A stretch of 64,000 nt of DNA from Halobacterium wangiae (GTDB lineage: Archaea > Halobacteriota > Halobacteria > Halobacteriales > Halobacteriaceae): assembly GCF_021249345.1 (NCBI RefSeq), contig NZ_CP089588.1:1550001-1614000 (forward strand), read 5' to 3'. The notes below the pieces were generated by a model that saw nothing but the letters and a program-made list of their open reading frames with translations, ran no database searches and was not told the origin of the DNA. Made by a program: the position numbers and the translations under genes. Below are positions 2,162 to 11,568 of this stretch, piece after piece (the first letter of the stretch is position 1; each line of letters begins with the position of its first letter).

Positions 2162-3439
2162 TTAGACCCTGATGTCAGCACCGAGTTCGGGTGCCCGAGC
2201 ATCGTATCCGTCCCCGCGGAGTTCCGACGCGAAGTCGGCACAGCGATCCCCGTGATTGACGAGAACCTGGCTCCCGCGGTACTCGTCGAGGAACGACAAC
2301 AGGCCGTCGCGGTCGGCGTGCGCAGAGAAGTCGTGGCTCTCGACCTGCGCGGCGACGCGACGGTGGCGGCCGTCGAGTTCCGCACTCCCGGTCTCGAGGA
2401 GTTCGCGGCCGGGCGTTCCCTCGACTTGGTAGCCCGTGAACGCGACCTTGTGCTGGGGGTTGCCTGCGATGGCGGGGACGTAGGTCATCGCGGGGCCGCC
2501 CGCGAGCATCCCGGCGGTGGTGACGATGGCGGTCTGCTTCTCGGCGATGCGACGCCGCTGGCCGTTCCGCGTGCTCGCGTCGACGAAGCGCGCGTGGCCG
2601 CAAGCCCGGCCGAAGGCGTCGGGGTCGCGGAGGAACCCGGGAGTCTCCCGGAACCGCCTGGTGACCGCGACCCCCATGCCATCGACGTAGCACGGCACGT
2701 CGTGGGCATCGCAGACGAGCATCGCCTCCTGGGTGCGCCCGATGGCGAACGCGGGGACGACGACGGTGCCGCCCTCGTGGATGGTCTGGGTCACCGAGCG
2801 CGCGAACCCCTCCTCGACGGTCGCGCGGTCGGGGCGGGTGACGTCCGCGTACGTGGACTCACAGAGAACGATGTCCGCGTCCGGGCGCGCGGTCGTCCCT
2901 GAGAGTAGGCGCTGGTCTTCTGTGTTGAAGTCGGCGGTGTACAGCAGGCGCGTGTCGCCGTCGTCGACGAGGACGTGGGCGCTCCCGGGGATGTGACCGG
3001 CGTTGAAGAACGTCACCTCGTGGCCCGCGGCGTCGAAGGACTCCTCGTAGTCGTGGGTCTCGGAGACTTCGCCGAGGCGGGCGACCTCGGTGTGCGTGAA
3101 CGGGCAGTCGTAGCGGCCGCCGCGGTCGTTCCACTTGTGGTGGTCGCCGGGCGCCATCCCTTGGAGTTTGAGCGTGTCTGTCGCGAGGAGGCGTGTGAGG
3201 TCCCGGGTCGGCGGTGTCCAGTGGATGGGTGGGCGGCGGTCGCCGGAGAGGAGTGCGGGGAGGAGGCCGACGTGGTCGAGGTGGCCGTGGCTGGCGACCA
3301 CGGCGTCGGGGTCGACGGAGTCGACGGGGAACTGCGGTGGGGTGCCGGACTGCATGCCGTAGTCCAGCAGGAGGCGGTCGTTGACGAGGATGGCGCTCCG
3401 ACCGACCTCACGGGCGCCGCCGAGGAACCGGATCTGCAT
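2162..3439 (-). CDS. Metallo-beta-lactamase / beta-CASP family nuclease-like protein
   Basis: The 425-residue protein opens with the beta-CASP style MQIRFLGGAREVG and has the metal-binding motif HGHLDH at residues 51-56. Further acidic and His segments follow (CESTYADVTRP, FTGYQVEG), with a C-terminal LVNHGDRC. This order matches the CPSF/RNase J group, which cuts or trims RNA with two zinc ions in the cytoplasm. It lacks the N-terminal KH domains of archaeal CPSF1 and is slightly short for aRNase J, so a specialised paralogue is possible. The ATG start fits the family N-terminus. GC content returns to the chromosomal norm here. RNA as substrate is inferred from the family. Confidence 0.8.
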   Translation of the reverse strand: MQIRFLGGAREVGRSAILVNDRLLLDYGMQSGTPPQFPVDSVDPDAVVASHGHLDHVGLLPALLSGDRRPPIHWTPPTRDLTRLLATDTLKLQGMAPGDHHKWNDRGGRYDCPFTHTEVARLGEVSETHDYEESFDAAGHEVTFFNAGHIPGSAHVLVDDGDTRLLYTADFNTEDQRLLSGTTARPDADIVLCESTYADVTRPDRATVEEGFARSVTQTIHEGGTVVVPAFAIGRTQEAMLVCDAHDVPCYVDGMGVAVTRRFRETPGFLRDPDAFGRACGHARFVDASTRNGQRRRIAEKQTAIVTTAGMLAGGPAMTYVPAIAGNPQHKVAFTGYQVEGTPGRELLETGSAELDGRHRRVAAQVESHDFSAHADRDGLLSFLDEYRGSQVLVNHGDRCADFASELRGDGYDARAPELGADIRV

Positions 3440-3579
3440 TGGCGGGGTGTAGTGTGGCGGGGCGTTTCATGCCGTCGGTCCGCAGCGCTCGCCGACCGCA
3501 GACTGTTCCTGACCTGACCCTCGAACCCCCACCGCGGCTCTGCGCGGGGTTTAGGGGGTTCGCGGACGTACCTCCGTAC

Positions 3580-4098
3580 ATGAACGAGTCCTATTCGAGA
3601 CGACAGTTCGTGGCTGGCGTCGGCGTCGCAAGTGCAGTGGCACTCGCAGGTTGTGGAGGTAGCGGCGGGGACGGCGACGGTGGCGGCGAGATGACCGACC
3701 CAGGGGGCGGTGGTGGCGACGAGACGACGGAGACGACGGAGACGACGGAAACGACCGAAACAGGGGGCGGCGGTGGCGGCGGGAACGTCGTCGCCGCGGG
3801 ACCGGACGGGGAACTGGTGTTCGAACCCGAGGAGATCACCGTCTCGAGCGGGGACACCGTGACCTGGGAGTTCGAGAGCCCGAGCCACAACGTCTCCGCG
3901 TGGCCGGAGATGGACGATCAGGTGTCGATTCCGGAGGGTGCCGAGGGGTTCGGGACGATGCCGGAGGACGGTGACCCGTACGCCACCGTCGCGCAGGGCG
4001 AGACGTTCGAGCACACGTTCGAGACGACCGGCGAGTTCACGTACGTCTGCGTGCCGCACGCGGCGTCCAACATGGTCGGCACCGTCGTCGTCGAGTAA
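3580..4098 (+). CDS. Halocyanin-type blue copper lipoprotein 1
   Basis: 172 residues. The twin-arginine motif SRRQFVAGVG and lipobox ALAGC show Tat export and lipid anchoring on the outer face of the membrane. A Gly/Asp/Thr-Glu-rich linker follows, then one cupredoxin domain. The copper ligands are visible: His in SPSHNV, Cys and His in YVCVPH, and Met in SNMVG. The start at 3580 was chosen because the Tat motif begins five residues in. An A/T-rich TTTAG about 28 bases upstream suits a leaderless transcript. It lies just before a second halocyanin and nosZ, so it probably carries electrons to nitrous oxide reductase. That role is inferred from position. Confidence 0.88.
   Translation: MNESYSRRQFVAGVGVASAVALAGCGGSGGDGDGGGEMTDPGGGGGDETTETTETTETTETGGGGGGGNVVAAGPDGELVFEPEEITVSSGDTVTWEFESPSHNVSAWPEMDDQVSIPEGAEGFGTMPEDGDPYATVAQGETFEHTFETTGEFTYVCVPHAASNMVGTVVVE
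3718..3764 (+). repeat. Short tandem repeat coding Thr-Glu linker
   Basis: A nine-base unit close to GAGACGACG is repeated about five times with slight decay and encodes the Thr-Thr-Glu run in the linker of halocyanin 1. Repeats like this can change copy number by slippage, which would alter linker length without breaking the frame. Confidence 0.75.
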
Positions 4099-4288
4099 CG
4101 CACCCCCAACCGCACTCCACGCGAGCCGGTCTCCTTCTCGAACGCTACCGATACTCACTGGAGCCTGTGGGGGTCCACACGCGCCTTACCAACGACCTCA
4201 CTAACATATTCGGCCGCGTTCCCGACTTCCTGTACTCTGCTTGCTGGTTTACGTGGAACCCACTCTGAGGCCCAGACGAGGCAAGAGT

Positions 4289-4783
4289 ATGAGGGAACAC
4301 TCACGACGTACGTTCCTGGCATCGGTAGGTGCAGCGAGCGCGCTCGCGCTCGCGGGCTGTTCCTCCGGGTCCGGGGAGAGCGACGACGGCGGTGGCGACA
4401 CGACGACCACCGCGTCCGACGACTCCGGGAGCAGTGGTGACTCGGGGTCGTTCACGGAGACCAGCACCGTCGAGATGAACGACGAACTCGCGTTCGCGCC
4501 GAAGCAGATCCAGGTGTCGGCGGGGACGACGGTGACCTGGGAGAACGTCGGTGCGGTCGCCCACTCGGTCACCGCCTACGAGGACGAGATCCCCGACGGC
4601 GCGGCGTACTTCGCGTCCGGCGGGTTCGACAGCGAGAGCGCCGCCACCGACGCCTACCCCGACGAGGGGAACATCGAGGAGGGCGGCACCTACGAGCACA
4701 CGTTCGAGACGACCGGCACGTACGAGTACTACTGCATCCCCCACGAGATGAACGGGATGGTCGGCACTATCAAGGTGGTCTGA
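4289..4783 (+). CDS. Halocyanin-type blue copper lipoprotein 2
   Basis: 164 residues, starting at the ATG that places HSRRTFLASVG next to the N-terminus; a longer in-frame start at 4241 would bury the Tat signal. The lipobox is ALAGC. An acidic Ser/Thr/Asp linker leads into a plastocyanin-like domain with copper ligands His (VAHSV), Cys and His (YYCIPH) and Met (MNGMVG). The stop is followed after one base by the nosZ start, so the two are surely co-transcribed. It is the likeliest direct electron donor to NosZ. It is homologous to the preceding halocyanin but has a shorter linker, so the pair may be a duplication. Confidence 0.88.
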   Translation: MREHSRRTFLASVGAASALALAGCSSGSGESDDGGGDTTTTASDDSGSSGDSGSFTETSTVEMNDELAFAPKQIQVSAGTTVTWENVGAVAHSVTAYEDEIPDGAAYFASGGFDSESAATDAYPDEGNIEEGGTYEHTFETTGTYEYYCIPHEMNGMVGTIKVV

Positions 4784-4784
4784 A

Positions 4785-6794
4785 ATGACAGATTCGCCGT
4801 CCGACGGCACCGACAGCACCGAACTCGACCCCGAGGCGGTCGTCGAGCGACACGAACGCCAGATCGAGGACCTCCTCGCCGAGGTCGACGAACCGACTCC
4901 ACGGGGCGACGACTCGCCGACGCTGGAGCTGGCGGGTCTCGAACTGAACCGCCGCGACTTCGTGAAGGCCGGCGTCGCGACCGGCGCGATGGCCGGGCTC
5001 GCGGGCTGTTCCGGCGACATCATCAACCGAGGCGGCTCGGGCGGGAACTCGAACAACGGTGGCAGCCAGAGCGGGTCGGCGCCCGACCACAAGGTCCCGC
5101 CGGGCGAACACGACGAGTACTACGGCTTCTGGTCGGGCGGCCAGTCCGGCGAGATCCGCATCGTCGGCATCCCGTCGATGCGCGAACTGATGCGCATCCC
5201 GGTGTTCAACAAGGAGGCCTCCCGGGGGTACGGCTTCGACGACGAGACCCGGGAGATGCTGGAGGGCGCCGGCGACTACACGTGGGGCGACAACCACCAC
5301 CCCGTCCTCTCGGAGACGGACGGCGACTACGACGGCGAGTACCTCTGGGTGAACGACAAGGCCAACGGTCGCATCGCCCGCGTGAGCCTGAAGTACTTCG
5401 AGACGGACGCCATCACGGACGTCCCGAACGTCCAGTCCGTCCACGGCTGCGCCGTCCAGAGCCCCGACACGGGCTACATCTTCGGGAACGGCGAGTTCCG
5501 GACGCCGCTGCCCAACGACGGCCGCGACGTCCACAACCCGGAGAAGTACACCGCGCTGTTCTCCGCGATCAACCCGCAGACGATGGAGACGGAGTGGCAG
5601 GTCGAGGTCGACGGTAACCTCGACATCGTCGACACGGACAAGGACGGCCGCTGGGCCATCGCGTCGGCGTACAACTCCGAGGAGGCCACCGAGGTCTCCG
5701 GGATGACCCACGACGACCGCGACTACGTGAAGGCCTTCGACGTGCCCCAGATCGAGAAGGCCGTCGAGGCCGGCAACTACCGCGAGGTCAACGGCGTGCC
5801 GGTCGTCGACGGCACGCAGGACAGTTCGTTGAACAGCGGGGACAGCCCCATCGTGCGCTACATCCCGACGCCGAAGAGTCCGCACTGCGTCGAGGTCGGG
5901 CCGGACGGGAAGTACGCGTTCATCGCCGGCAAACTGTCGCCGACGGTGACGATGCTCGACATCGAGGCCCTGGACTCCTCGAGTGACCCCGACGACGTCG
6001 TCGCGGGCCGGCCGAAGGTCGGTCTCGGTCCGCTGCACACGACCTTCGACGGCAACGGACACGCGTACACGTCGCTGTTCATCGACTCGCAGGCCGCCAA
6101 GTGGGACATCGAGGCCGCCGTCGACGCCGAGGCCGGGTCGACGGACCCCGTCATCGAGAAGCAGGACGTCCACTACAACCCCGGCCACATCCAGGCCGTC
6201 GAGGCGATGACCACCGACCCCGACGGCGAGTGGCTGGTCAGCCTCAACAAGCTCTCGAAGGACCGGTTCCTGCCGGTCGGCCCCATCCACCCGGACAACG
6301 ACCAGCTCATCCACATCGGCCAGGGTGACAAGGAGATGGAACTCGTCGCGGACCACCCGGCGTACCCCGAACCCCACGACTGCGTGTTCGCCCACCGGGA
6401 CAAACTCGACCCCGCGACGACGTACGACAAGGCCGACTATGAGGGCGAGAAGGAGTTCGTCAAGCAGTCCGACTCGGGCGTCGAGCGCACGGGCGAGCGC
6501 TCCGTGGACGTGAAGATGTCCTCGATGCGCAGCGAGTTCGGCCTCAAGGAGTTCACGGTGAAGGAGGGAGACGAGGTCACGTTCACCGTGACGAACATCG
6601 AGGGTGTCCGCGACATCATCCACGGTGTCGCCATTCCCGAGTACGACGTCCACCTCGCCATCGCACCCCAGGACACCCGGTCGGCGACGTTCACCGCGGA
6701 CGAACCCGGCGTGTACTGGTTCTACTGCACGTACTTCTGCAGCGCACTCCACCTGGAGATGCGCTCGCGGATGATCGTGGAACCGCGCGACTGA
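4785..6794 (+). CDS. nosZ: Nitrous oxide reductase NosZ
   Basis: 669 residues. NosZ reduces N2O to N2 outside the membrane. The N-terminal beta-propeller shows the CuZ-type histidines (WGDNHHP, SVHGC, SPHC, NPGHIQA, YPEPHDC). The C-terminal cupredoxin domain has the CuA set Cys648, Cys652, His656, Met659 in FYCTYFCSALHLEM, with an upstream His in IIHGVA. The Tat pair is Arg56-Arg57 and the lipobox Cys is residue 75, so the enzyme is Tat-exported and probably lipid-anchored. The roughly 55-residue acidic stretch before the arginines is unusually long for a signal peptide n-region. The start is fixed by the tight spacing to the halocyanin gene. Confidence 0.96.
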   Translation: MTDSPSDGTDSTELDPEAVVERHERQIEDLLAEVDEPTPRGDDSPTLELAGLELNRRDFVKAGVATGAMAGLAGCSGDIINRGGSGGNSNNGGSQSGSAPDHKVPPGEHDEYYGFWSGGQSGEIRIVGIPSMRELMRIPVFNKEASRGYGFDDETREMLEGAGDYTWGDNHHPVLSETDGDYDGEYLWVNDKANGRIARVSLKYFETDAITDVPNVQSVHGCAVQSPDTGYIFGNGEFRTPLPNDGRDVHNPEKYTALFSAINPQTMETEWQVEVDGNLDIVDTDKDGRWAIASAYNSEEATEVSGMTHDDRDYVKAFDVPQIEKAVEAGNYREVNGVPVVDGTQDSSLNSGDSPIVRYIPTPKSPHCVEVGPDGKYAFIAGKLSPTVTMLDIEALDSSSDPDDVVAGRPKVGLGPLHTTFDGNGHAYTSLFIDSQAAKWDIEAAVDAEAGSTDPVIEKQDVHYNPGHIQAVEAMTTDPDGEWLVSLNKLSKDRFLPVGPIHPDNDQLIHIGQGDKEMELVADHPAYPEPHDCVFAHRDKLDPATTYDKADYEGEKEFVKQSDSGVERTGERSVDVKMSSMRSEFGLKEFTVKEGDEVTFTVTNIEGVRDIIHGVAIPEYDVHLAIAPQDTRSATFTADEPGVYWFYCTYFCSALHLEMRSRMIVEPRD

Positions 6795-6945
6795 CGACAC
6801 TCGACGGTCGGCCACCGGGGCCGACTCGAACGTCGGCCCATCCGGCCGGCGCCGACGACTACCGGCGGTCGCCCGGGGTGCGGTGCGGGACGGCGTGCTA
6901 GTATCTGGCGCCGTCCCCACTGTGGCCCGCGTGGCCGTCACCGGT

Positions 6946-6962
6946 GGTTCGTCAGACGAACC
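6946..6962. promoter_or_regulatory. 17-base palindrome upstream of nosB-like gene
   Basis: GGTTCGTCAGACGAACC is a perfect inverted repeat (8-base arms around a central A), ending 17 bases before the nosB-like start. A one-base centre does not make a good hairpin, so an operator for a dimeric regulator is more likely. No regulator was identified. Confidence 0.45.
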
Positions 6963-6979
6963 CCGGACGAGGTGACACC

Positions 6980-7714
6980 ATGGACTACGAACTCCCCAAG
7001 CGGACGGCGTTCTACCAGCTACGTCGGGGGCTGCCGGTGCTGGCGGCGCTGCTGTTCGTCGCCGCGCTCGCGCTCCCGATGTGGCGCATCAGCGTCGACG
7101 CCGTCCAGTACCCGAGTACGACGCTCCACCTGCAGCTGTACGCCTATCCGCGCATCACCGGCGACTACGTGGAGATGGCGAATCTGAACAAGTACATCGG
7201 GTTCTACTACCCGGATCCGGTGTACTGGCAGCCGAACTACGAGCCCCACCCCCGGGCGGTCGACGTCCCCGAGTGGTCGTTCGGGCCGCTCGCGTTCGTC
7301 GCCGTGTCGGCGTGCAGCGTCTTCGTCGCGCTCGCGCCGACCACCCGGAAGCTCAAGCGCGGGCTCACCGCGCAGTTCGTCGGCACCACTGCGGTGTTCG
7401 GCGTCATGCTCGCGGACATCCAGTACCGGCTCTACCAGACCGGGCACACGCTCGACCCGGCCGCGCCGGTGATGGGCGTCGAGGGGTTCACGCCGCCGCT
7501 CTGGGGGAGCTACCAGGTCGCGAACATCACGAGCCACTCCCGGTTCGGGCTGGGCGCGTACCTCTCGATGGTCGCCGTCGGCCTGCTCGCGGTGGCGTTC
7601 TACTACCGCGACCGGGACACCACACCCGGGGACCTCTGGGCCGCGCTCGCGCGCCGGTTCGGCGACGACGCGCCAGAGGATCCCGCCCACGCCGAGGAAC
7701 CGGGTGGGAGGTGA
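6980..7714 (+). CDS. NosB-like integral membrane protein
   Basis: 244 residues with hydrophobic segments near residues 15-35, 95-115, 130-150 and 195-215. The middle part (VEMANLNKYIGFYYPDP) lies between the first two, probably outside the cell. GAGGTGA lies just upstream of the ATG and decides this start over an earlier in-frame GTG. It sits between nosZ and nosD, the place where clade II bacterial nos clusters carry nosB, a membrane protein also found next to nosZ. I infer a NosB-like role in NosZ maturation or electron supply from position and topology; there is no motif that proves it. Confidence 0.6.
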   Translation: MDYELPKRTAFYQLRRGLPVLAALLFVAALALPMWRISVDAVQYPSTTLHLQLYAYPRITGDYVEMANLNKYIGFYYPDPVYWQPNYEPHPRAVDVPEWSFGPLAFVAVSACSVFVALAPTTRKLKRGLTAQFVGTTAVFGVMLADIQYRLYQTGHTLDPAAPVMGVEGFTPPLWGSYQVANITSHSRFGLGAYLSMVAVGLLAVAFYYRDRDTTPGDLWAALARRFGDDAPEDPAHAEEPGGR

Positions 7715-7720
7715 GCGCCC

Positions 7721-9100
7721 GTGACTGACCGCCGTTTCGAGCGCGGCTTCGCCGCCGTCACGGCGGTGTTGCTCGTCGTGAGCGTCGGCGCCGTCGTCGC
7801 CAGCCCCACAGCGGACCCCGGGACCGACCGCAGCGTCGACTTCGACGCGGACGTGCCCGCCGAGTACGACTTCTCGGCACCGCCCGACGAGGGCCACGCC
7901 AGCGTCGACGGGGAGCGCTTCGACACGCTCGCCGGCGCGCTCGACGCCGCCGCCCCCGGCGACACCGTGCGCGTCCAGGGCACCGTCGACGGCGACGTCA
8001 GCGTCGACACACGCGGTGTCACCATCGTCGGCGCCTCCCCCGCCGAGTCCGTCGTCTCCGGGACCGGCGACGGGACCGTACTGACCGTCAACGCCACCGA
8101 CGTCACCGTCCGGGACGTCTGGGTCAAGGACGCCGGCTACTCCACCACCGACAACGACGCCGCCGTCTGGCTGGCCGGCGCGAACGCCACCGTCGACGGC
8201 GTCCGCGTCACGAACACGACGTTCGGCGTCTGGGTGGACGGCGCCACGGACGCCACCGTCCGGGACGCCACCATCGTCGGGCGAGCGTCCATCGAGCGGT
8301 TCTCCGACCGCGGCAACGGCATCCAGCTCTGGGAGGCCCGCGACGCCGTCATCGAGAACAACACCATCACGGACGTCCGCGACGGCGTCTACTTCTCGTG
8401 GAGTTCGGGCGTCACCGCCCGCGAGAACACGCTGTGGGACCTCCGCTACGGCGTCCACTACATGTACTCCGACGACAACCGCCTCGCGAACAACACCGCG
8501 TTCGGCAACGACGTCGGCTACGCGCTGATGGTCTCCGACAACCTCGAGATCGTCGACAACGTCGCGGTCAACAACTCGGGGACCAGCGGACACGGCATCC
8601 TCCTGAAGGAGGTCGACCACACCCGCATCGCCCGCAACGACCTCGTCGGCAACGGCAACGGGCTGTTCGTCTACAACTCCATGGACAACGACGTCACGGA
8701 CAACCTCGTGCTCGCCAACGACGTCGGCGTCCACCTCACCGCGGGAAGCACCGACGCCCGCGCCCACGGCAACTCCTTCGTCGACAACGACGACGCGATG
8801 AAGGCGGTCATCGGCCAGCAAGTCGCCTGGAACGGCAGCGACCGCGGGAACTACTGGGACGGCGCCCGACCCGTGGACGTCGACCACGACGGCGTCAGCG
8901 ACGTCCGGTTCCAGGCGACCGGCGTCCTCGACGACCTGAGCCACAGACACCCGGAGGTGGAGGTGTTCGCGTCGAGCCCGGCGTTCGACGCCGTGCGACT
9001 GGCGACGCGCTCCGTGCCGCTGCTCGAGACGCCGGGCGTCGTCGACCACCACCCGCTCGCGGCCCCCGCACACGACGACTGGAGGCGATACTATGAGTGA
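7721..9100 (+). CDS. nosD: NosD, beta-helix copper-centre maturation protein
   Basis: 459 residues with a GTG start six bases after the previous stop and a GGGAGGTGAG ribosome site. A hydrophobic N-terminal segment (AAVTAVLLVVSVGAVVA) acts as signal or anchor. The body consists of repeated Asn/Asp-rich turns (IENNTITDVRDG, LANNTAFGND, ARNDLVGNGNG), typical of the right-handed parallel beta-helix (CASH domain) of NosD. It works outside the membrane with the NosFY transporter to assemble the CuZ sulfide-bridged cluster of NosZ. It overlaps nosF by eight bases, so translation is coupled. The C-terminal region ends with a His-rich DHHPLAAPAHDD. Confidence 0.92.
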   Translation: MTDRRFERGFAAVTAVLLVVSVGAVVASPTADPGTDRSVDFDADVPAEYDFSAPPDEGHASVDGERFDTLAGALDAAAPGDTVRVQGTVDGDVSVDTRGVTIVGASPAESVVSGTGDGTVLTVNATDVTVRDVWVKDAGYSTTDNDAAVWLAGANATVDGVRVTNTTFGVWVDGATDATVRDATIVGRASIERFSDRGNGIQLWEARDAVIENNTITDVRDGVYFSWSSGVTARENTLWDLRYGVHYMYSDDNRLANNTAFGNDVGYALMVSDNLEIVDNVAVNNSGTSGHGILLKEVDHTRIARNDLVGNGNGLFVYNSMDNDVTDNLVLANDVGVHLTAGSTDARAHGNSFVDNDDAMKAVIGQQVAWNGSDRGNYWDGARPVDVDHDGVSDVRFQATGVLDDLSHRHPEVEVFASSPAFDAVRLATRSVPLLETPGVVDHHPLAAPAHDDWRRYYE

Positions 9101-10034
9101 GATCGAACTCAGAGACGTGGCGAAGCGCTACGGCACCGTCACCGCCCTCGACGGCGTCTCCCTCTCCGTCGACCGCGGGGAGACGTTCGGCCTCATCGGC
9201 CGCAACGGGGCCGGCAAGACGACGCTGTTCAAGATGCTCGTCGGGCACGCGACGCCGGACGCGGGCAGCGTCTCCGTCGGCGGGCTCTCCCCGAACGCCG
9301 GCACCGCGCTCCGCGAGCGCGTCGGCTACCTGCCCGAGCAGGCCGGCTTCCCGCCGTCGTTCACGGGCCGGGAGGTGCTCGACTTCCACGCGCGCGTCCG
9401 CGACGTCCCCGGTGACGTCCGGGCCGAGCGCGTCCAGCAGGTGCTCCAGACGGTCGGCCTCGCGGACGCCGCCGACCGCCGCGTCGGCGGCTACTCCAAC
9501 GGGATGAACCGCAGGCTCGGCCTCGCAACCACGCTCGTCGGCAACCCCTCGGTGCTCCTGCTGGACGAACCGACCGCCGGCCTCGACCCCGCGGGCGTCG
9601 CGGACTTCCACGAGATCGTGGAGACGCTCTCCCGGGAGACCGCCGTCACCATCGTCGTCACGTCCCACGTGCTCAGCGAGATCGAGCGCCTCTGCGACCG
9701 GGTCGCCATCCTCGACGAGGGGACGGTCACCGTCGAGGGCGACGTCGCCGACCTCCGACGCGCCGCGGGCGAGCGCGTCTCCGTGGTCGCCACGGTCGAG
9801 GACGCCGAGAGCGCCGCCGACTACCTGGCAGACAGCGCAGGCGTCGTCGCCGTCGCCGCGGACCCGCCACAGCTCCGCCTGAAGTGCGAGCGCGCCGCCG
9901 TCTTCGACGTGCTCGACGACCTGCGGAACGCCGCCGAGGTGGCGGACGTCGAGGTCGCGGAGCCAGGGCTCGACGCCGTGTTCCGGGACTCCGTCGCCCC
10001 CGACCGCGGCCTCACGGGAGGTGAGCGCCGATGA
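9093..10034 (+). CDS. nosF: NosF, ABC transporter ATPase for NosZ maturation
   Basis: 313 residues. Walker A GRNGAGKTT is near residue 37, the signature is YSNGMNRRLG, and Walker B with D-loop is LLLDEPTAGLDP, followed by a switch His in TSHVLSE. The C-terminal extra domain of about 90 residues is of the kind found in NosF/CcmA-type ATPases. NosF powers the NosY channel, which with NosD supplies the sulfur species needed for CuZ. The gene overlaps nosD at its start and nosY at its end (ATGA), giving a tightly coupled D-F-Y unit. Confidence 0.92.
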   Translation: MSEIELRDVAKRYGTVTALDGVSLSVDRGETFGLIGRNGAGKTTLFKMLVGHATPDAGSVSVGGLSPNAGTALRERVGYLPEQAGFPPSFTGREVLDFHARVRDVPGDVRAERVQQVLQTVGLADAADRRVGGYSNGMNRRLGLATTLVGNPSVLLLDEPTAGLDPAGVADFHEIVETLSRETAVTIVVTSHVLSEIERLCDRVAILDEGTVTVEGDVADLRRAAGERVSVVATVEDAESAADYLADSAGVVAVAADPPQLRLKCERAAVFDVLDDLRNAAEVADVEVAEPGLDAVFRDSVAPDRGLTGGERR

Positions 10035-10948
10035 CCGACGACGAGACCGCCACCACGGACGGCAGCGGCGTCTCGAACGCCGGCGTCGAACTCGGCCTCG
10101 AGACCGAGCGCCGGACCGCCACCGGGACAGCGTCGACGCTCCGCGCGGCCGCAGTCGACACGGCCCTCGTCGCCGTCCGGGAGTACCGCCTCGCGGTCCG
10201 GCGCCGCTGGGCGCTCGGCATCGCCGTGCTGTTCGCGCTGTTCTCCGTCGCGCTCGTCTTCCTCGGCGGGTCGGCGGTCGGCCCCACGCGGGTGGGCGCA
10301 GTGCTCGCGAGCTTCGCGCAACTCGGCGTCTACGTCGTGCCGCTGGCCGCGCTCGCGGTCGGGATCGACACCATCGTCGGCGCCGACGAGAGCGGCTCCC
10401 TGGAGATGCTGCTCGCGCTCCCGCTGTCGAACGCCGCCGTCGTCACCGGGACGTACCTCGGGCGGGCCGCCGCACTCGCCGGCGGGATGCTCGTCGGCTT
10501 CGCCGTCGGCGGCGCACTCCTCGTCCGGTTCGCCGGCCTCGGCGTGCTCGGCTCGTACGCGACCGTCGTCCTCACGGCGGTCGGCGCCGCGCTCGCGTTC
10601 CTCGGCGTCAGCGTCCTCGCGTCCACGCTCGCGAGCGAGAAGACCCACGCGCTCGGCGCCGCGCTCGCCGCGTGGGTGTGGTTCGTCCTCGTCCACGACC
10701 TCGTCGCGCTCGGCCTCGTCGCGACCTTCGACCTCCCGCAGTGGGTCGTCGCGGCCGCCGTGCTCGCGAACCCCGCGGACCTCTTCCGCGTGTTCGTGCT
10801 CCGCGGCGTCTCCACCACCGCCGGCGGCATCGCCGGCGTGCTCACCGGCACCGGTCTGACGACGCCCGTACTCCTCGCGGCGCTGGTGGCCTGGATCGTC
10901 CTGCCGGTCGGCGGCGCGGTGCTCGCGTTCCGCCGTCGGTCGGTCTGA
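10031..10948 (+). CDS. nosY: NosY, ABC transporter permease for NosZ maturation
   Basis: 305 residues. After a soluble N-terminal stretch of about 50 residues come six hydrophobic segments, including WALGIAVLFALFSVALVFL, YVVPLAALAVGI and LLAALVAWIVLPVGGAVLAF. The motif VGADESGSLEMLLALPLS is typical of the NosY/ABC-2 permease family. It pairs with NosF in the membrane. The start overlaps the nosF stop by four bases (ATGA). Confidence 0.92.
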   Translation: MTDDETATTDGSGVSNAGVELGLETERRTATGTASTLRAAAVDTALVAVREYRLAVRRRWALGIAVLFALFSVALVFLGGSAVGPTRVGAVLASFAQLGVYVVPLAALAVGIDTIVGADESGSLEMLLALPLSNAAVVTGTYLGRAAALAGGMLVGFAVGGALLVRFAGLGVLGSYATVVLTAVGAALAFLGVSVLASTLASEKTHALGAALAAWVWFVLVHDLVALGLVATFDLPQWVVAAAVLANPADLFRVFVLRGVSTTAGGIAGVLTGTGLTTPVLLAALVAWIVLPVGGAVLAFRRRSV

Positions 10949-10977: not shown

Positions 10978-11568
10978 ATGACACGACACACAAATCGACG
11001 CGCGTTCCTCGCGACCGGTGCCGCAGCGCTCACGACCGCACTCGCCGGCTGTACCGTGCTCGGCGGCGCCTCCGGAGACCAAGAAGCCGGCCCGAAACCC
11101 GACCCCGTCGACCTCTCGGGCGGCAAGGCCGACGACCAGGGCGGGATGCTCATCGGCGAGCACTTCGGCCCGAACGGCCAGATATTCTACGCGGACCACA
11201 GCCCCGAGGGCCACGACAACCCCGCGTGGTTCCACACGCTCGCCGTCGGCCTGTTCCCCTACCACTTCGCGCGGGAGCAGCAGGGGTGGACCGCCGACGC
11301 TATCTACGTGACGGACTACTCGACGGTCGACTACGACCTCACCGAGCGGAAGGGTCGGCAGTACATCACCAGCCACACGGCCGCCGACACGTTCGGCGAC
11401 GCCGAGGCGCTGACGTACGTCGCCGGCAGCCGCGTCCACGGCGGGATGGGCACGGAACTCCTCCCGTTCTCCGACGACAGCGACGCCTCGGAGTTCGTCA
11501 GCACGCACGGCGGCGAGACGGTGGCCTTCGACGACATCGACCGGGAGTTCCTCCAGTCCTCCCGGTAG
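10978..11568 (+). CDS. nosL: NosL-family lipoprotein lacking the usual cysteines
   Basis: 196 residues with Tat pair Arg7-Arg8 and lipobox Cys25. The stretch GEHFGPNGQIFYAD, then PYHFAREQ and YVTDYSTVDY, is NosL-like. NosL delivers copper to NosZ. In classical NosL the segment before GPNGQ carries a Cys-x-x-Cys-Gly-Met copper site; here the matching residues 52-57 read DDQGGM, keeping the Met but neither Cys. The gene starts 29 bases after nosY and ends the cluster. The start was chosen because the Tat signal begins at residue 7. Confidence 0.85.
   Translation: MTRHTNRRAFLATGAAALTTALAGCTVLGGASGDQEAGPKPDPVDLSGGKADDQGGMLIGEHFGPNGQIFYADHSPEGHDNPAWFHTLAVGLFPYHFAREQQGWTADAIYVTDYSTVDYDLTERKGRQYITSHTAADTFGDAEALTYVAGSRVHGGMGTELLPFSDDSDASEFVSTHGGETVAFDDIDREFLQSSR

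Follow-up and report, generated by a model that had tools for sequence, protein, structure and literature searches.

The window, which is the whole 64,000-nucleotide stretch of Halobacterium wangiae DNA that was analysed, carries a nos operon with the gene order nosZ, an open reading frame (ORF) of 256 amino acids, nosD, nosF, nosY, and nosL, in which nosL is the last gene and starts 29 bp after the end of nosY. The genes and the features within nosL are as follows.

3439–4783, + strand: two halocyanin-type copper proteins ahead of nosZ (3439–4098 and 4241–4783; PF00127)
4785–6794, + strand: nosZ, TAT-dependent nitrous-oxide reductase (TIGR04244, 750 bits; alignment to 6RKZ)
6944–7714, + strand: unnamed 256-amino-acid protein (by position)
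7721–9100, + strand: nosD (TIGR04247, 363 bits)
9093–10034, + strand: nosF, ABC ATPase (PF00005; operon position)
10031–10948, + strand: nosY, ABC permease (PF12679)
10978–11568, + strand: nosL, Cys-less NosL lipoprotein of 196 amino acids (Pfam PF05573, AlphaFold2, fold match)
10996–11052, + strand: twin-arginine and lipobox signal, RR at residues 7–8 and LAGC ending at C25 (sequence inspection)
11131–11148, + strand: motif D52-D53-Q54-G55-G56-M57 in place of CxxCGM (sequence, alignment)
11161–11163, + strand: His62, present in 38/38 Cys-less proteins and common to most other NosL too (alignment)
11233–11235, + strand: His86, present in 38/38 Cys-less proteins, immediately before the first helix (alignment, AlphaFold2)
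11446–11448, + strand: Met157, the invariant second Met of NosL, in HGGMG (alignment)

Aligned to 6RKZ, the NosZ of the window conserves the His residues that bind CuZ as well as the Cys, His, and Met ligands of CuA, and this conservation rules out a broken NosZ with no need for copper. The CuA loop reads C-T-Y-F-C in the window and C-S-W-F-C in P. stutzeri NosZ, and none of 80 haloarchaeal NosZ has Trp at this position of the loop, where Tyr (44), Phe (29), and His (7) occur instead. The 256-amino-acid ORF (6944–7714), for which no Pfam, NCBIfam, or PDB match was obtained, lies directly after nosZ on the same strand in 80/80 haloarchaeal nos loci and is apparently a constant partner of haloarchaeal NosZ.

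The ORF that runs from the ATG at 10978 through the stop codon ending at 11568 had been called NosL in the first-pass annotation, and this identity was borne out by the PF05573 profile (E 4e-37; 127.9 bits against a curated cut-off of 24) and by the predicted fold. The AlphaFold2 model (mean pLDDT 87, with the domain mostly >90) matches the crystal structure of NosL 7OG7 with Z 19.3 and an rmsd of 1.6 over 134 aligned residues, and the NosL chains of the NosDFYL complexes with Z 17.6–17.9. The protein resembles the NosL of P. stutzeri (7OSF) and S. denitrificans (7OG7) in fold (Z 17.7–19.3), as an extracytoplasmic (lipo)protein, and in its nosDFYL context, and it shares with these CxxCGM proteins G56-M57, M157, and a GPxGQ-type loop. 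The next family in the fold comparison is the organomercurial lyase MerB (Z 5.2), to which the window protein is only 9% identical and whose catalytic Cys it lacks; a relation between the MerB and NosL folds has been published (PMC4999995). An export signal of the lipoprotein type (RR and LAGC) was read by eye, and R8, G24, and C25 are invariant among 89 aligned NosL. Both characteristic Met residues, M57 and the GxMG residue M157, are present, and the gene stands next to nosDFY. The window copy is the only NosL found in a search of the whole H. wangiae genome (3.11 Mb, one contig), which excludes a second, Cys-bearing NosL; PCuAC was similarly ruled out as a substitute chaperone, having no match in this genome, and SCO gave one weak match there.

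The region expected to read CxxCGM does read DDQGGM at residues 52–57, as first annotated, whereas Cys occupies both position 52 and position 55 in 65/65 distinct Cys-type haloarchaeal NosL, so that the window protein carries the changes C52 to Asp and C55 to Gly. The Met is not the sole survivor of the motif, as had been stated, since the haloarchaeal alignment indicates that Gly56 is retained besides Met57; the downstream stretch GPNGQIFYAD was correctly described as well conserved (G64, P65, G67, Q68, F70, and Y71). The annotation had also allowed for the cysteines aligning elsewhere in the protein, but in the alignment the only Cys is C25 of the lipobox, which means that they were not relocated, and the mature protein would contain no free thiol if C25 is lipidated. 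The position of the CXM-motif Cys is held by G55, and the four Cys of a treble clef (CxxC and CxxxC) correspond to D52, G55, H86, and V90.

The protein had been treated as a single odd case; it belongs instead to a conserved clade, much of which lies outside nos operons. Searching the proteins of 84,980 species yielded 11 relatives, every one of them from haloarchaea and carrying either DDQGGM or DDWGGM. At the DNA level, 22 (8 genera) of 391 Halobacteria genomes matched the pattern DDxGGMxIG (reversed control, 0) and 38 (10 genera) matched the WFHT...VTDY part, which together place a Cys-less NosL in 40 of the 391 sampled genomes. From the pattern-matched loci, named contigs, and plasmid records, 38 distinct Cys-less proteins were assembled, in which D52, G56, M57, H62, W84, H86, and M157 are each invariant (38/38). 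Position 53 is Asp in 29, Tyr in 8, and Phe in 1, and position 55 is Gly in 37/38 and Gly or His in all. The domain is free of Cys in 37/38, and the lone exception carries its Cys at an unconserved place, which rules out a displacement of the cysteines elsewhere in the clade.

In a maximum-likelihood tree computed without the motif columns and with bacterial NosL as the outgroup, the Cys-less proteins form one clade (97/60; one change; 96% of bootstrap trees), and the deepest branching of the haloarchaeal NosL is weakly supported (83/80). Because the bacterial outgroup retains C55, the most economical account is a single loss of Cys in the stem. His86 and the Cys loss arose once on the tree, so that their coupling was seen as a single occurrence and not repeatedly, which weighs against a functional replacement of the Cys by His86. 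The nosL gene is under purifying selection, with a dN/dS of ~0.4 against the sister species (genome G014), or 0.32 when the signal region is excluded, and of ~0.12 between Haloferax copies (H. larsenii and H. elongans). The presence of the motif in all 11 relatives, together with purifying selection, puts the motif change far beyond chance, and a sequencing error or pseudogene is ruled out by this selection and by the recurrence of the motif across 38 distinct proteins. Full-text literature searches, whose coverage was partial, returned no description of a Cys-less NosL.

Published work describes NosL as TRASH-like treble clefs that were duplicated and fused (PMC4999995). Bennett 2019 (PMC6530538) proposes the CXM-motif Cys and Met as likely copper ligands, points to one further absolutely conserved Met, and demonstrates tight Cu(I) binding for P. 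denitrificans NosL. Positions 52, 55, 86, and 90 are the ligand positions of a TRASH-like treble clef, and the window protein has Cys at none of them. In the solved NosL of P. stutzeri and S. denitrificans, Cys stands at positions 52, 55, and 86, which are Asp, Gly, and His in the window protein, and position 90 is Glu or Asp. Among the 65 Cys-type haloarchaeal NosL, 45 have Asp at position 86 and 20 have Cys, and all 20 of the latter also have C90 and exactly four domain Cys (C52, C55, C86, and C90). In this four-Cys group (L033–L060), CTM replaces CGM in 13 of the 20, and these proteins are possibly a separate functional group. Since C52/C55/C86/C90 form the treble-clef ligand pattern, position 86 belongs by homology to the same metal site, and the Cys-less clade has exchanged Cys, Cys, and Asp or Cys for Asp, Gly, and His at positions 52, 55, and 86. 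The first proposal, that the protein uses other ligands (the Asp and His nearby) or has changed role, is upheld in part: of these two options, other ligands is the better supported, and the likely substitute is a specific residue, His86. The Asp and His near the motif are not in general the substitute, for H79, H133, and D53 are not constant among the Cys-less proteins. Clade I NosL (A. cycloclastes 2HPU and S. meliloti) resemble the window protein in M57, M157, H62, and a Cys-poor site, but retain the single thiolate C55 of the CXM motif and have no His at position 86.

With moderate confidence, the clade is most likely still a copper chaperone that uses a Cys-free Met57/Met157/His86 site, with help from Asp52 and/or His62, and feeds the NosD of a NosDFY system. 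The invariance of both Met residues in 38/38 proteins, and the fold and family shared with the chaperone NosL, support a retained copper role, and the choice of Met57, Met157, and His86 as putative core ligands follows from the two invariant Met, the homology of position 86, and the ligands proposed for NosL (Bennett 2019). In the clade, both Cys of the CxxC knuckle were lost (C52 to Asp and C55 to Gly) and a His was fixed at position 86, which belongs to the ancestral treble-clef site as they do. The lipid-anchored NosL domain would then bind copper extracellularly, hold it by Met57, Met157, and His86 with the assistance of Asp52 and/or His62, and pass it to NosD of the NosDFY ABC system, for the benefit of NosZ in the case of the window. 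The clade, its sequence changes, its fold, its genomic slot, and its purifying selection are observed, whereas the spatial proximity of these residues, their binding of copper, and the identity of NosD as partner are what we infer. PCuAC is a Met/His copper chaperone with a Cys-free site outside the cytoplasm. The window NosL would resemble it in having an extracytoplasmic, Cys-free Met/His copper site, and the two families are not known to be related.

Across 80 haloarchaeal nos loci, read up to ~9 kb on each side of nosZ, a CxxCGM NosL stands at the end of 30 and a Cys-less NosL at the end of 4 (5 including the window; the other four being G014, G202, G167, and G090, with nosL in the same slot of the operon), and no NosL lies within ~9 kb in 46, a few of which are cut by contig ends. 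Genome G012, from the same genus as H. wangiae, has a full nosZ-ORF256-nosDFY operon (L121) and no NosL anywhere in the genome; NosL is not essential everywhere in haloarchaea, and this dispensability speaks against the copper chaperone reading. The Cys-less clade showed no association with NosZ among 391 Halobacteria genomes (NosZ in 14 of 40 Cys-less genomes and 99 of 351 others; Fisher p 0.36). Cys-less copies adjoin NosDFY-like genes free of NosZ at L240, L241, and L245, a four-Cys NosL occupies the same kind of cluster in Haloarcula, and at L245 of genome G053 both NosL types occur within the one locus, each near a NosDFY-like set. That Cys-type and Cys-less proteins occupy the same slots suggests the same general task, namely metal delivery to NosD-type ABC systems. 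Most Haloferax Cys-less copies are orphans after glmM, their constant neighbour, and no conserved copper neighbour was seen when one was looked for around these copies. In Halorubrum plasmids (L197 and L202), genes of the SCO and TauE/SafE families are found close to a Cys-less NosL with the motif DYQGGM, and such genes accompany Cys-less nosL only in some Halorubrum cases.

These settings lend some weight to a change of metal or oxidation state, in which an Asp/His/Met site would serve NosDFY-like systems in general with a divalent ion such as Cu(II) or Zn(II), and the protein would not supply CuZ with Cu(I). As ligands, Asp52 and His86 are harder than thiolates; the clade has no association with NosZ, and its copies lie beside NosZ-free NosDFY-like clusters or away from evident copper genes. 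This reading is nevertheless rather unlikely given that both soft Met ligands are invariant and that nosL sits inside the nos operon in the window and in four other sampled genomes. Three organisms possess nosZ and lack a Cys-type NosL, namely H. wangiae, the Halobacterium genome G014, and Haloferax sp. Q22 (G167), and a search for gas data on these three found none. Haloferax denitrificans has a Cys-less NosL in its nos operon and produces dinitrogen (PMC7188791), which favours the copper chaperone reading, but it also encodes a Cys-type NosL, and its N2 output is consequently no proof that the Cys-less protein works.

In several NosZ-free clusters (L240, L241, L245, L249, L251, and L199), a NosD of ~630 amino acids has a NosL-like domain fused to its N-terminus in which none of the metal ligands survives, alongside an ABC ATPase and permease and often an HTH protein and a separate NosL. 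The fused domain has no Cys, neither Met, and no ligand at position 86, and it can be read as a natural control for the pattern that true loss of the site would leave. Its existence, and the many haloarchaeal nos loci without NosL, would be compatible with a dead metal site in a NosL left with a purely structural or docking function toward NosD or NosDFY. We regard such a loss as improbable for the Cys-less clade, however, because D52, M57, H62, H86, and M157 are kept in 38/38 proteins while the corresponding residues are lost in the fused domain, and because nosL is under purifying selection. Least probable of all is a Cu(I) site completed only upon docking by a ligand from NosD or NosZ, which would make Cys in NosL itself unnecessary and would suit the presence of NosL in the solved NosDFYL complexes (7OSF and 7ZNQ), since Cys-type and Cys-less proteins share the same slot with no evident change of partner.

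On its way to CuZ, where the greenhouse gas N2O is destroyed, Cu(I) is believed to be held by NosL through the Cys of the CXM motif. A natural Cys-free clade with a His fixed at the same site is a ready experiment on the ligands that a CuZ chaperone requires. More tentatively than for the copper chaperone role itself, a NosL lineage may have swapped its thiolate site for a His/Met/carboxylate site and may act as a metal-loading lipoprotein of NosDFY-type ABC systems generally, with or without NosZ. If this is true, haloarchaea would have in NosL-NosDFY a module of general use for delivering metal outside the cell, and the assembly of CuZ would be possible with a cysteine-free chaperone. The Cys-less clade has the look of a copper chaperone redesigned in nature.
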